DNA of 22,530 nt from a virus, in IMG/VR virus record IMGVR_UViG_3300020222_003398, positions 1-22,530 of that record; one strand, written 5' to 3'. Below the pieces are notes generated by a model, which had not been told where the DNA came from, did not search any database, and worked only from the letters and a program-made list of their open reading frames with translations. A program made the position numbers and the translations under genes. Below, piece after piece: positions 13,718 through 22,234 of the stretch (the first letter of the stretch is position 1; every line of letters begins with the position of its first letter).

Positions 13718-14383
13718 TTACGGCAGCGGGTCCCGGCCCCCGTGACGCCGGGGTTTCCTGGCCTTGGCGAAAAAGTTGAGCATCCCGATTTCCCCCCGGG
13801 GGCTGCCGAACAAGCCGTTTTTGTATTCCTGCTCCCACCATTGCAAGCTCTGGTGCGGGGGATTGATCATGAGGTCCTGGAGCAGCTTGAAGTTCTTGAT
13901 GACCACCTTGGGGATCAGCACCCGGGCCCTAAACGCCTTGGGGATGCATACCGGTTCATGCCCCTCCTGTGACATGGGCGCGGGTTTTTCGAAAAACCAG
14001 AGGCGGATAGTTTCCGCCGCCTTGGGGAAAATCCCGATTTTTCGCCCGTCCTCGGTGGCGGCAATATGGGTGACGTGATCCCCCGCCTCATCGTGGTCAA
14101 CGTCCAGCCGGTCCATCTCCTCGAACCTGGTTAAAACGGTGAGGGGCTGCCAGGCGCTGTCCCGGGCCTGGAAAAGGTTCTTGTGATAATTGGCCGGGGG
14201 GTCGTAGAGCCAGGCCCCGGCGTTGACCGGCAAGGGAACCGGCTCCACCAGGCGCAACCCCGGCAGGTCGAAATCCGTGGCCAGTTCCTCCACCGCGTCG
14301 TTGAGCCACTTCTGGAGGTAAGGCTCCAAGGAAGGGTCGGAGATGATGATTTTTAACTCATTCTCCAGTTCACCCAGGTTCAT
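13718..14383 (-). CDS. Adaptor / head-to-tail connector protein, 221 aa
   Basis: The ATG is preceded by GGGAGG two bases away and overlaps the end of the 58-aa zinc-ribbon ORF by 14 bases. The N-terminus is helical (NLGELENELKIIISD...LQKWLNDAVEELATDFDLP), then beta segments (VEPVPLPVNAGAWLYDPPAN) and a long C-terminal region with KAFRARVLIPKVVIKNFKL and WWEQEYKNGLFG. This helix, beta insertion, helix layout with a 200-230 residue length fits the adaptor ring of short-tailed phages (T7 gp11 / P22 gp4 role), which docks between portal and nozzle. The gene order (adaptor then nozzle) supports it. Other head-tail connector families are possible. Confidence 0.7.
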   Translation of the reverse strand: MNLGELENELKIIISDPSLEPYLQKWLNDAVEELATDFDLPGLRLVEPVPLPVNAGAWLYDPPANYHKNLFQARDSAWQPLTVLTRFEEMDRLDVDHDEAGDHVTHIAATEDGRKIGIFPKAAETIRLWFFEKPAPMSQEGHEPVCIPKAFRARVLIPKVVIKNFKLLQDLMINPPHQSLQWWEQEYKNGLFGSPRGEIGMLNFFAKARKPRRHGGRDPLP

Positions 14384-14546
14384 TGCCTCCCACCCCTTTC
14401 TGCCTTTTTGCCGTCTCTTCCAGGTGGCACCCGCATTGCGGGCAGTATTCCGTTGCCGGTTTATCCGGGGCGAAGGGAAAGACCAGATCGGCCCGGTAAA
14501 CGAGTTCGCACTTCGGATTCGGGCAGCGGATCAGGTAGTCCGTCAA
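14370..14546 (-). CDS. Small zinc-ribbon protein, 58 aa (TTG start)
   Basis: This short frame starts at a TTG directly after the TAA of the 193-aa gene, in the same frame, and ends inside the start of the 221-aa gene. It contains CPNPKC (Cys8 and Cys13) and CPQCGC (Cys35, Cys38, Cys40), 21 residues apart: a normal zinc-ribbon knuckle pair. The rest is mixed (VYRADLVFPFAPDKP) and the tail is basic (HLEETAKRQKG). AAGGAG lies about 11 bases before the TTG, inside the upstream gene. Without this gene the neck cluster would have a 163-base hole, unlike the tight packing elsewhere. It may bind zinc and fold as a virion or assembly factor; function unknown. The start codon is the weakest point. Confidence 0.6.
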   Translation of the reverse strand: MTDYLIRCPNPKCELVYRADLVFPFAPDKPATEYCPQCGCHLEETAKRQKGVGGNEPG

Positions 14547-15128
14547 TTATGGCGCCGCTCCTTCTGCTTCCCCTGAAGAAGACGGAGTCGCCGGGGCCGT
14601 CAGAGGTCCAGGCTCCGGGACAGCCGGTTTCTTCGGCGCGGGCTTTTTGACGATCTTCTTTTTGGGCGGCGCTTTGGGAGCCGCGGCCTGCTCCTCCGGG
14701 GCCGGTTTCTGCCATTCCGGCGGCTGTTTCGCCTGGGTCCGGGCCAGCTTCTCCTGCTCGGCGATGAACCAGCGGATCACCACTTCCTGATGCGGTCCCG
14801 GTTTGAGGGCCTGGGTGATCTCGGTGATGCTGGCGATGGGGGTCCCGTCCTCAAACGCGAAGGAGCCGTCCGGGTTCATGACGATGCGCCGCCCTTGTTC
14901 TTCCGGCTCATCGTGCCGGTGCTCGAACCAGTACACGGCCTCGTCCTGGTCCGCACCCGGGGGGATGACTTCCGTGATTTCCTTCTTGCTGGCGATGGGG
15001 AGACCGGTGGTGTGAACGAAAGCCCCATTGGCCAGCTTGCTGATGCTTTTTCCTTTCATCACCCAGGTCTGGACCACCTGGATCTGTCCGAAGCGTCCAG
15101 TGTCCAGGGTCTGCGGTTCGAAATCCAT
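14547..15128 (-). CDS. Hypothetical neck/head protein, 193 aa, duplicated core and Lys/Pro tail
   Basis: AGAGGAG lies 7 bases before the ATG. Two similar units make up the core: residues 34-68 (NGAFVHTTGLPIASKKEITE...VYWF) and 86-121 (DGSFAFEDGTPIASITEITQ...VIRWF). They share G-x-F-x-F/H, G-x-P-I-A-S-x-x-E-I-T-x and an aromatic end. After residue 138 the chain is low-complexity: Pro, Ala and Lys with KKKIVKKPAPKK (157-168), then an Ala/Pro/Ser-rich C-terminus. The tail looks like disordered DNA- or RNA-binding tails. It lies between a putative capsid decoration gene and the zinc-ribbon ORF. The core family is not recognised; a head-completion or capsid-interior role is a guess. Confidence 0.7.
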   Translation of the reverse strand: MDFEPQTLDTGRFGQIQVVQTWVMKGKSISKLANGAFVHTTGLPIASKKEITEVIPPGADQDEAVYWFEHRHDEPEEQGRRIVMNPDGSFAFEDGTPIASITEITQALKPGPHQEVVIRWFIAEQEKLARTQAKQPPEWQKPAPEEQAAAPKAPPKKKIVKKPAPKKPAVPEPGPLTAPATPSSSGEAEGAAP

Positions 15129-18369: not shown

Positions 18370-20229
18370 CTATGCCGGCGCGACTCCGGCCAGGGCCGCG
18401 GCTTCGGCCTGGGCCGCCTGGGCCTGCTGCACCGTATCTTCGGCCTGGGCGTTAAGGCCCATGCGGGCCCGTTGCCATTGTTCGATAGCCAAACCGGTCT
18501 GGTCGTCCACCCGGATTCCCTCGTCTTTCAGGTTGAGCCTGGTTTCGATGGCCTTGATGGTGGGGAAGGCCCGGAGATAGGGCACGAATTCCGGGTTTTC
18601 GAACAGGGGCAGGATGACCTCCCGGAGGTTCCTGAGTTGCTCCCAATCCTGCATCATGGCGCTGATGCCGCTCACCGTGAACTGCCCCGTGGTCAGGCTG
18701 GGCAGGTTCAAACCCGTCCGGCTCTCCGGGTCCGCATACAAGAGCGCCTGTTCCGGCCCCATGAACAATTCCAGGTCCTTGTAAGGCATGTAGACATCCA
18801 GGGTTTCCGCCCCCGCCAGGATGGCCTCCAAAGCCCCCTGCTCGATGTTGAACCCCATGAGCCCGAACACCGTCATGCTCTGGTCCAGGTTTTGGGCCGA
18901 CTCCCGAGCCGTCACTTCGGCCCGGTAGCCCGGCAGGCCCCGCACCACGCTGGGGACCAGCACCCCGTCCTCGTAGGACATCTTGCAGAAGTTGAGGTTG
19001 GCCAGCACGTCCGTGGTGGTGGACCGGCTGTGAATCTCCCGGTAGGCCTGCTGGCCGCTTAAGGTCCCGTAAGTGAGGCATTGTTTGCCGGGGTACCAGT
19101 CCAGGTCCTCCCGGTCCACCAGGGAGGAGACGTCTATCTCGATGGGCGGGTTCACCAGCCAGTTGAGGTAGTCGGCGTGCAGCGACAACAGGCTGCACAT
19201 GAACTCCCACAGGGTCTTGATCCCCTGCAGCAGCCCCCGGCCATCGAAGCGGAGCGGGTGGGGAATGACGCTGAACGCCGTGCCCGGCCACCTTAAGGTG
19301 GGGTAGGGGTTGACTTCCGGGAGCTTGATCACCCGGCCCCCCGCGGTGGTGTAAGTGGCGTTGGGCAGCAGCAGCTCCCCCCGGGAATCCAGGACCGTGC
19401 CCCAAAACTCCGAAGTCAGAATCAGGGTGCGGAACTTGGAGCGGTGATGGATTTGCTTGCGCCGGGAGGACACCGCCTCCTTGGTCATGCGCTTGTCGTC
19501 CGTGCTCCCTTCTTCATTCCCCGGCTTGAACTCGCCGATGTTGGTGTAGCGCCCGTCCTGCTCGAATTTTTTCAGTTGCCAGTAATCCAGGTATTCCGAG
19601 TGAATCCAGTACAGTCCCGATTGCGGCTCCCGGGAGATGGCGTCCGGGTCCCGGTAAATCTTCCAGGGTTCGATGAGCAGGTACTTGAGGCCCTTGCCCT
19701 TGCGGTACACCGGGATCATCTCCATGCTGGTGCCCACCGCACAGGACATGCCGCAGGCGTCGGAGAACTGCAGCGGGAAGTTGGAGAAGGTCCGGGACAA
19801 CTGGACGGTCATCAACTTTTTCCGGAAGTCCGCCGCTTCCTGGTTCCGCTCGTTTTCAATGCTCAAAAACTGCACGTCGAACGCCTTGCGGATCAGGGCC
19901 ATGGCGAAGAGCACCGACGCGTGGGGCATGGGCAGGACCACCCGGGACTGCCACGCCTCCTTGGCCGCGTAGTTGGGCGGCTCTTCCTCGTTCCACAGGC
20001 GCCAGCATTCGTCCTGGACCCGCCTGACCTCCTCGTTGGCGTTCATGGAGACCTGGACGCAGTCCTCCAGGTATTCCACGAAATGTTTTTCGTTCTCCCC
20101 GGCGTAGGCTTGGGCCGCTTCCTCCCGCTCGGCCAACTCCTGGGCGTCCGTGCCCGCGGCCGCGGCCTGGCGCTCGATCTCGCTCATCCGGCTCTTGACG
20201 CCTTTGATGGGGTCTTCGATAAAGGCCAT
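18370..20229 (-). CDS. Portal protein, 619 aa
   Basis: AGGA is 7 bases before the ATG, which overlaps the stop of the 87-aa gene (TAATG). The layout is that of a podovirus portal: a helical N-terminal region (EIERQAAAAGTDAQELAERE), a beta-rich body with WQSRVVLPMPHASVLFAMAL, EMIPVYRKGKGLKYLLIEPW and IYRDPDAISREPQSGLYWIH, then a long crown of helices in the C-terminal quarter (QDWEQLRNLREVILPLFENP; AEDTVQQAQAAQAEAAALAG). The length fits the family. It forms the 12-subunit ring through which DNA enters and leaves the capsid. It sits after terminase and before scaffold/capsid, as expected. The Ala/Gln-rich helical C-terminus could reach into the head as a barrel. Confidence 0.85.
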   Translation of the reverse strand: MAFIEDPIKGVKSRMSEIERQAAAAGTDAQELAEREEAAQAYAGENEKHFVEYLEDCVQVSMNANEEVRRVQDECWRLWNEEEPPNYAAKEAWQSRVVLPMPHASVLFAMALIRKAFDVQFLSIENERNQEAADFRKKLMTVQLSRTFSNFPLQFSDACGMSCAVGTSMEMIPVYRKGKGLKYLLIEPWKIYRDPDAISREPQSGLYWIHSEYLDYWQLKKFEQDGRYTNIGEFKPGNEEGSTDDKRMTKEAVSSRRKQIHHRSKFRTLILTSEFWGTVLDSRGELLLPNATYTTAGGRVIKLPEVNPYPTLRWPGTAFSVIPHPLRFDGRGLLQGIKTLWEFMCSLLSLHADYLNWLVNPPIEIDVSSLVDREDLDWYPGKQCLTYGTLSGQQAYREIHSRSTTTDVLANLNFCKMSYEDGVLVPSVVRGLPGYRAEVTARESAQNLDQSMTVFGLMGFNIEQGALEAILAGAETLDVYMPYKDLELFMGPEQALLYADPESRTGLNLPSLTTGQFTVSGISAMMQDWEQLRNLREVILPLFENPEFVPYLRAFPTIKAIETRLNLKDEGIRVDDQTGLAIEQWQRARMGLNAQAEDTVQQAQAAQAEAAALAGVAPA

Positions 20230-20492
20230 TAGAACTTCCTGATATGCCGCACGCGGGTTTTGATTATCTTGGGGCCGCGTTCCCGCCCCGGCTTCCCTTT
20301 AGGCCGGGGCCGCTTGCGCTCCGGCAGGCCCTTTTCCGGTTCGCCGGCCAGGTCTTTCAGGTCCTCGGGCTTCATGGTCCGGGCGGCCTCGGCTGCCTCG
20401 GGGGAGTAAGTGGCGGGCAGTTCCCCTTCCTGAATGGCATGGGCTATCCCCATGAACCGCCTCTGGGCCTTGGATTTGATTTTGCCGGGCAT
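20229..20492 (-). CDS. Small basic protein with KSKAQRRFMG motif, 87 aa
   Basis: I chose the ATG at 20492, 2 bases after the previous stop and preceded by AGGTGG; a GTG at 20504 in the same frame would overlap the upstream gene. The N-terminus MPGKIKSKAQRRFMGIAHAI, then EAAEAARTMKPEDLKDLA, follows a short conserved pattern I know from phage and bacterial proteins of unknown function. The C-terminal half is highly basic (ERKRPRPKGKPGRERGPK), so it may bind nucleic acid. It lies between a packaging-cluster unknown and the portal and overlaps the portal start, so it may act during packaging. A small terminase identity is unproven: no DNA-binding fold is recognisable. Confidence 0.65.
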   Translation of the reverse strand: MPGKIKSKAQRRFMGIAHAIQEGELPATYSPEAAEAARTMKPEDLKDLAGEPEKGLPERKRPRPKGKPGRERGPKIIKTRVRHIRKF

Positions 20493-20494
20493 TT

Positions 20495-20827
20495 CTAGTC
20501 CCACCTGATGGCGTCATAGTTGGCCGCGAATCTGCGCCGGGCCTCGGTAGCCGGCGCCACGTCCGCCGAGACATCCAGTTTGGCCCCGTTCCACTCGATC
20601 AACTCGAAGTTCTTCCGGAAGGCGTCGCCCTGGTGCTGCAGGGAACTCGTCTCCCCGGTGGCGTAAGGCAGGTCCTTGGTGTTCCAGCCGTCTTCCGGCT
20701 CGAAAACCTTGCCTTTGGTCATGTCCACGAAGCACTCCCGACCCACCATCACCCCGTCCAGGCGCTTGCGCCGGTGTTTCAGCATGGGCCACCAGCCCCG
20801 GTAGCCGTGGGTTTCCAATTTGCCCAT
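20495..20827 (-). CDS. Hypothetical packaging-cluster protein, 110 aa
   Basis: The ATG follows the terminase stop directly (TAAATG) with GGGAGG upstream. The N-terminus is basic with aromatic residues (GKLETHGYRGWWPMLKHRRKRLDG), the middle acidic (VFEPEDGWNTKDL), and the end charged (EARRRFAANYDAIRWD). It has no known motif and does not resemble small terminase proteins clearly. Its tight coupling to terminase suggests it works in packaging or head completion. Confidence 0.65.
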   Translation of the reverse strand: MGKLETHGYRGWWPMLKHRRKRLDGVMVGRECFVDMTKGKVFEPEDGWNTKDLPYATGETSSLQHQGDAFRKNFELIEWNGAKLDVSADVAPATEARRRFAANYDAIRWD

Positions 20828-22234
20828 TTAACCTCCCACCGCGTAGGTCTGTGCCCGCTTCTTGGCCCTCCCGGCCGCTTGGCGCAGAGACCCCACGTCC
20901 TGCACCACGTTGGCGGGCAGCATGACGCACACCCCGTTGGCCCAGGCCTCGCAAACGTGGGAAATTTCGTCTTTCTCGGGGATGTTGCTCACCGCCTTCC
21001 CCGAGTTGTCGGTCTTGTAGTGCCAGGCCCCTTTCAAGCCCTTGTGCAGCAGCTTCTCCGTGGGGCTTAAGTAATAGGCGGGCATGCCTTGAATGTTCAT
21101 GTTCAGAACCCGCTTGATCCCCAGCTTCAGGATGGGCCATTTGCTCGGCCCCGGCTCGAACCGCCCCCCCAGCTTTTCCTCGATCACCTTGGCGGCGGAG
21201 TGCTGTTTCCGGCTCTGGTCCGGGATGAGCATGGTGCGGTCGCCGATGTCCCGCCACTCGAAGCACTTGTCCTTCCACCGGGGCGACTCCATCAGGGGCA
21301 GAACCATTCTGTCGATGAGAGAGCCGATGTCGCCCCCGGGCAAAAACAGGGTGTCGATATGGATGAGGCGCCCCAGCTTGGTCCGTTGCCCGATGAGGCA
21401 GGCCGGATTGTGCCAGCCGTCCCAAAACCGGAAGCCCACCAGGCCGGGGGCCGGGATGATGGGGTCGGGGGAGCGGTGCCACTCCTGATTGTATTCCGGG
21501 GTCACCCTTTCCCCCCGGTACACCGCGGCGAATTTTCCCAGGACGTAGCGCTCGTAGGCCGCGGGGTCGTTCTTGTAGGCCGACCGGGCCGCCTGCCGGG
21601 CCGTCTCCTTCAGGTGAATGTTCTCCCCCGGCTGAATCCAAAATACCTTCTTGGTGATGAGGGGATTTTCCGGGTCCACGTCCGGGGCTTCCACCAGCCG
21701 GGGGAAGGTCCAATGCTCCTCGTCCGCCGGGTTCATGCTCACCTGGAGCCGGGAAAATTCCGCCTGGGCCCGGACGCAGCGCAGCAGCGCGTCGTTGAAC
21801 ACCTCTTCCGAAAGGCCGCTGTTGGCCCGCTCCAGCATGGCCGCGGGCTCTTCCAGCCAGATGCCGTCGTACTCCGTCCCTTGCAGCCGGTTCAGGGCCC
21901 CGGGATCGTCGATCCCGAACAGGTCCACTTCCACTTTGGGATTGCAATGGATGGCGAGTTGCCGGTAATCATCCCGCCAGGCAACCAGGGAAGGGGTCTT
22001 TCTGAAAATCTTGTTAATGGAACGAACGGTGGATCTCTTTATGTTAGTATGGGTATCGCGAATAACGGCCCATAACACCGGCCTCTTGTTGCGTTGCGCG
22101 CTAATAATCATCGCCCCTACCGAGGCGTAAGTCTTACCTTCGCCTGCCGGCCCGATAATGACGTTAATCAGCGCATCGCTATGGGCATAGGCGCTTTGTG
22201 TAGCTGACAAGTAGAGGTCAAGTTTATTGCTCAT
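20828..22234 (-). CDS. terL: Terminase large subunit, 468 aa
   Basis: The packaging motor: it uses ATP to drive DNA into the portal and cuts the concatemer. The ATPase part has a Walker A GPAGEGKT (28-35), Walker B GIWLEE (124-129) and a coupling SMNP (166-169). The nuclease part has FWDGWHNPA (Asp272), EWRDIGD (Asp329, Asp332) and DEISHVCEA (Asp422, His426), so both active sites look intact. A TAG lies in frame directly before the ATG at 22234, so this is the first possible start; there is no Shine-Dalgarno, unlike the genes downstream. Length is on the short side of normal. Base composition drops within the first 75 codons (51 % GC at 22021-22230, against 65 % at 21781-21840). Confidence 0.9.
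   Translation of the reverse strand: MSNKLDLYLSATQSAYAHSDALINVIIGPAGEGKTYASVGAMIISAQRNKRPVLWAVIRDTHTNIKRSTVRSINKIFRKTPSLVAWRDDYRQLAIHCNPKVEVDLFGIDDPGALNRLQGTEYDGIWLEEPAAMLERANSGLSEEVFNDALLRCVRAQAEFSRLQVSMNPADEEHWTFPRLVEAPDVDPENPLITKKVFWIQPGENIHLKETARQAARSAYKNDPAAYERYVLGKFAAVYRGERVTPEYNQEWHRSPDPIIPAPGLVGFRFWDGWHNPACLIGQRTKLGRLIHIDTLFLPGGDIGSLIDRMVLPLMESPRWKDKCFEWRDIGDRTMLIPDQSRKQHSAAKVIEEKLGGRFEPGPSKWPILKLGIKRVLNMNIQGMPAYYLSPTEKLLHKGLKGAWHYKTDNSGKAVSNIPEKDEISHVCEAWANGVCVMLPANVVQDVGSLRQAAGRAKKRAQTYAVGG

Follow-up and report, generated by a model that had tools for sequence, protein, structure and literature searches.

A small gene for a predicted zinc-ribbon protein, shared by related uncultured tailed phages, lies between the 193-aa and adaptor genes

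A 22.5-kb IMG/VR record (22,530 nt; the whole of this stretch is referred to here as the window) very probably carries a separate small gene encoding a zinc-ribbon protein, which is conserved in uncultured tailed phages, specifies products of ~44–77 aa and occupies a place in the head-neck block, flanked by the gene for a 193-aa protein and by an adaptor gene. On the minus strand of the window, the TAA stop codon of the 193-aa gene is followed immediately, and in the same frame, by a TTG codon (14546–14544), which opens an ORF of 58 codons ending at a TGA stop (14372–14370); its product reads (M/L)TDYLIRCPNPKCELVYRADLVFPFAPDKPATEYCPQCGCHLEETAKRQKGVGGNEPG and contains the cysteine knuckles CPNPKC and CPQC (C8, C13, C35 and C38), while a fifth cysteine, C40, is not conserved. 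The 3′ end of this ORF overlaps the start of the adaptor gene (ATG at 14383) by 14 nt. The original prediction had described the TAA, the in-frame TTG and the 58 codons with CPNPKC and CPQCGC, all of which were confirmed on the minus strand (Table 1), and had offered two explanations, i.e. a TTG-started small protein or limited read-through of the upstream stop.

Table 1. Features surrounding the stop–start junction in the window
Feature	Position	Strand	Description
SU10-type head-tail adaptor, 221 aa	13718..14383	−	PF24175, 42.4 bits versus a cut-off of 27, E 1.4e-10
Zinc-ribbon gene	14370..14546	−	TTG start, C8-X4-C13 ... C35-X2-C38; homologous ORFs start with ATG/GTG at the equivalent codon and keep all four cysteines
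TAA stop of the 193-aa gene	14547..14549	−	Abuts the TTG; upstream stop placed elsewhere in L003, L065, L005 and L006
193-aa gene	14547..15128	−	Predicted as a repeated pair of alpha/beta units, with disorder in the Lys/Pro-rich tail (from ~residue 137)
AAGGAG, Shine-Dalgarno-like hexamer	14558..14563	−	11 nt before the TTG

Relatives of the window were gathered from IMG/VR by searches with capsid, adaptor, terminase and zinc-ribbon sequences, and the gene order was common to the contigs obtained. Used as the only query against IMG/VR, the 58-aa protein yielded no relative, whereas the capsid, adaptor and terminase queries recovered them. The zinc-ribbon gene was present in 29 further contig junctions, in each case between the 193-aa gene and the SU10-type adaptor gene, and, of the contigs found to extend over both the 193-aa homologue and the adaptor, all contained a homologous ORF at the expected position when searched with a zinc-ribbon profile. 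When annotated phages were searched by protein, neither the adaptor nor an L026-type zinc ribbon produced a match, and the terminase query retrieved only three distant records (~24% identity).

Alignment of 26 full-length sequences revealed six invariant residues (C8, C13, C35, P36, C38 and G39). Between the window and its closest full-length relative (L065), dN was 0.18 and dS 1.37 (54 codons, 73% DNA identity), with 24 of the 44 differences falling at third positions, and other pairs of relatives likewise exhibited dN values well below dS. As judged from these comparisons of sequences, the gene is separate and the zinc-ribbon protein is under purifying selection. The ORF is short, starts with TTG and reaches no library family above the cut-off, as might be expected of a chance reading frame without a product; however, its homologues carry the invariant cysteines, have ATG or GTG at the equivalent codon and diverge with dN far below dS. 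Because homologous ORFs hold the equivalent position in every related contig found to cover the region, the ORF is not a product of chance, and an explanation of that kind, already refuted by the comparison with relatives, retains a negligible probability.

Start codons across the 30 junctions comprised 26 ATG, three GTG and a single TTG, the latter being that of the window. The two nearest relatives of the window, L065 and L003, have GTG in place of the TTG (GTGACGGATTA in both, versus TTGACGGACTA in the window), and L004–L007 have ATG at the same alignment position. Since the starts nearest to the window share this alignment position, the TTG is the form that a conserved start takes in the window. 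A TAGGAG hexamer, which includes the upstream stop itself, precedes the GTG in L003 and L065, near the position of the AAGGAG of the window. TTG is a weak start codon and a Shine-Dalgarno spacing of 11 nt is longer than usual, both of which count against a separate gene. Nevertheless, the option of a TTG-started small protein was borne out by the homologues with ATG or GTG at the equivalent codon, by their invariant cysteines and by the purifying selection.

The alternative option, that some ribosomes read through the TAA and thereby fuse the zinc ribbon to the flexible Lys/Pro-rich tail of the 193-aa protein, giving a minor extended virion protein, is highly improbable. In its favour, disorder is predicted for the tail of the upstream protein, and 19 junctions, that of the window included, place the zinc ribbon in the upstream reading frame without an intervening stop. 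Conversely, 11 of the 30 junctions are out of frame (L003, L005, L006, L014, L016, L018, L020, L059, L070, L074 and L079), with five in frame +1 and six in frame +2 relative to the 193-aa gene, and at least five frame changes are required on the tree of the upstream protein. The in-frame share (19/30) exceeds one third, but does not represent 19 independent events, because it derives mainly from clades that share a 3-nt gap. The junctions of L065 and L003, sisters that adjoin the window on the tree, are nearly alike (TAGGAGTCGGTA-GTG and TAGGAGCCGGTAAGTG, respectively), and one extra base places L003 out of frame; the frame was thus switched without harm to either gene. Furthermore, every homologue has its own start codon, TGA is absent from the in-frame stops, which are TAA (11) or TAG (8), and the RNA around the TAA of the window folds no better than shuffled sequences (z 0.48).

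A needed fusion would keep the frame; as the frame is not kept, read-through is not supported, and as a conserved mechanism it is ruled out by the out-of-frame relatives and the frame changes. Limited read-through as put forward in the original prediction thus found no support, given that neither the frame relation nor the stop is conserved (L003, L005 and L006 being out of frame). That prediction had also proposed a check for loss of the frame or the cysteines in close relatives, in which the cysteines proved to be kept and the frame lost, the latter counting against read-through. In lineages whose two genes happen to share a frame, there is a very slim chance that a small share of ribosomes may make a functional fusion of the 193-aa protein and the zinc ribbon beside the free protein. 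Literature searches on phage read-through brought up frameshift cases, such as E/E′ of P2 (PMC3091744), or unrelated ones, and nothing else.

While frame and stop vary, the stop-to-start gap lies between −4 and +10 nt in 29 of the 30 junctions, and the junctions of the relatives include ATGA and TGATG overlaps. Such overlaps are typical of coupled genes and have been linked to termination–reinitiation (PMC6728339). The 0-nt gap of the window resembles these tightly coupled stop–start pairs, but differs from them in that its combination with a TTG start makes the ORF appear to continue the upstream gene. Such close spacing is consistent with translational coupling of the 193-aa and zinc-ribbon genes, from which we infer that the two may be coupled. 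Most likely, ribosomes that finish the 193-aa gene would start at the TTG by termination–reinitiation or by Shine-Dalgarno-assisted initiation, and coupled initiation of this kind would tie the output of the zinc-ribbon protein to that of the neighbouring genes. Tight stop–start junctions are common between co-directed genes, and the original assertion that both explanations would be unusual was therefore overstated; the zinc-ribbon gene is an ordinary one. The junction also serves as a warning that a stop with an alternative start directly behind it can be mistaken for a read-through extension, and the copy in the window could escape gene callers biased against TTG starts or short ORFs.

The designation 'zinc ribbon' derives from the conserved arrangement of cysteines and from weak similarity of relatives to generic zinc-ribbon families, several relatives matching such models (best E 3e-06, Zn_Ribbon_1). 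Two CX2–4C knuckles, the second of which is CPxCG, correspond to the C4 pattern of zinc ribbons, the first knuckle being CX4C or CX2C across the 26 sequences. The best Pfam score of the window protein was 13.7 bits against a cut-off of 25.8, no Pfam or NCBIfam match was obtained at E 0.01, and all PHROG matches were below the cut-off. Curated zinc-ribbon families are many and a profile match is no defining feature of the fold class. On the strength of its cysteine pattern, the window protein is therefore classed as zinc-ribbon-like, without assignment to any named family, and its cysteines suggest that it would bind zinc. In the AlphaFold model, confidence was high for the two-knuckle core (block pLDDT 90–93, residues 11–40). 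Foldseek matches had E values above 0.7, none of them significant, and the only solved structure with a VIA-align Z above 2 was FUS-ZnF, an RNA-binding zinc finger (6g99, Z 2.3, a weak match). Generic C4 zinc ribbons (Zn_Ribbon_1, PF13240; Zn_ribbon_8, PF09723; rubredoxin-like knuckles) share with the window protein the two knuckles (CX2–4C ... CPxCG) and the small size; however, the window protein reaches no curated cut-off, and its family has conserved features of its own and a fixed place in the phage structural gene block.

The constant location of the gene ahead of the adaptor suggests that its product may take part in head-neck assembly. The original prediction had placed the ORF between neck genes, which is correct for the downstream SU10-type adaptor (PF24175), whereas the upstream 193-aa protein has no match among known families that would identify it as a neck protein. 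A literature search for zinc-ribbon neck proteins returned nothing. It is also possible, if rather doubtful, that the product is not involved in head-neck assembly or part of the virion, and instead acts as a small nucleic-acid-binding protein or as a translational or transcriptional regulator of the Com or Ogr/Delta type. Weak matches to PHROG 6417, 'translational regulator' (best E 0.0027), and to Pfam Ogr_Delta (best E 0.0034) were each given by three family members, and the sole solved structure above the VIA-align threshold is RNA-binding; yet none of these hits rises above noise, many unrelated zinc ribbons share them, and the gene remains between the 193-aa and adaptor genes in all relatives found. 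For the window protein itself, no Com- or Ogr-type profile match was obtained, those of the three relatives in each case having E values of 0.003 or worse. Com of Mu (PHROG 6417) and Ogr/Delta of P2 (PF04606) are likewise small phage-encoded zinc-binding proteins (zinc binding being predicted for the present family) to which very weak profile matches exist, but similarity to them is not significant, and the window gene is located among head-neck genes rather than in a control region. With this gene, the head-neck block of these uncultured phages gains a small zinc-ribbon family of consistent placement.

The terminase and portal of the window (18370–22234) are 100% identical over their full length to VGSX01000121.1, a contig binned as Deltaproteobacteria, and other terminase relatives are located in Syntrophobacterales and Desulfobacterales assemblies. 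These observations provide a lead towards a deltaproteobacterial (Desulfobacterota-type) host, although bins can contain stray phage contigs.

With regard to the neighbouring genes, the 193-aa protein was assigned to no PHROG or Pfam family, and a fold search produced no significant match; its internal repeats read GxxxxxTGLPIASKKEITE.. and GSFAFEDGTPIASITEITQ... In L031, L032, L034, L038 and L014, a spacer of 255–286 nt, possibly containing another small gene, separates the zinc ribbon from the adaptor. The adaptors of L005 (2961–3875) and L020 (4001–4876) contain an inserted segment after ~residue 51–63, which in L005 comprises ~85 aa with GGTGY-type motifs. The adaptor gene is followed by a head-closure gene (PHROG 8040). 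Just before the true head-closure gene, L055 (3854–4018) and, equivalently, L064 (4665–4829) harbour a short ORF that combines a head-closure-like N-terminus (FKGMNNLPG) with a second zinc-ribbon-like stretch (FDPNWRVRVAG...CPLC) and that looks like a recombination remnant.
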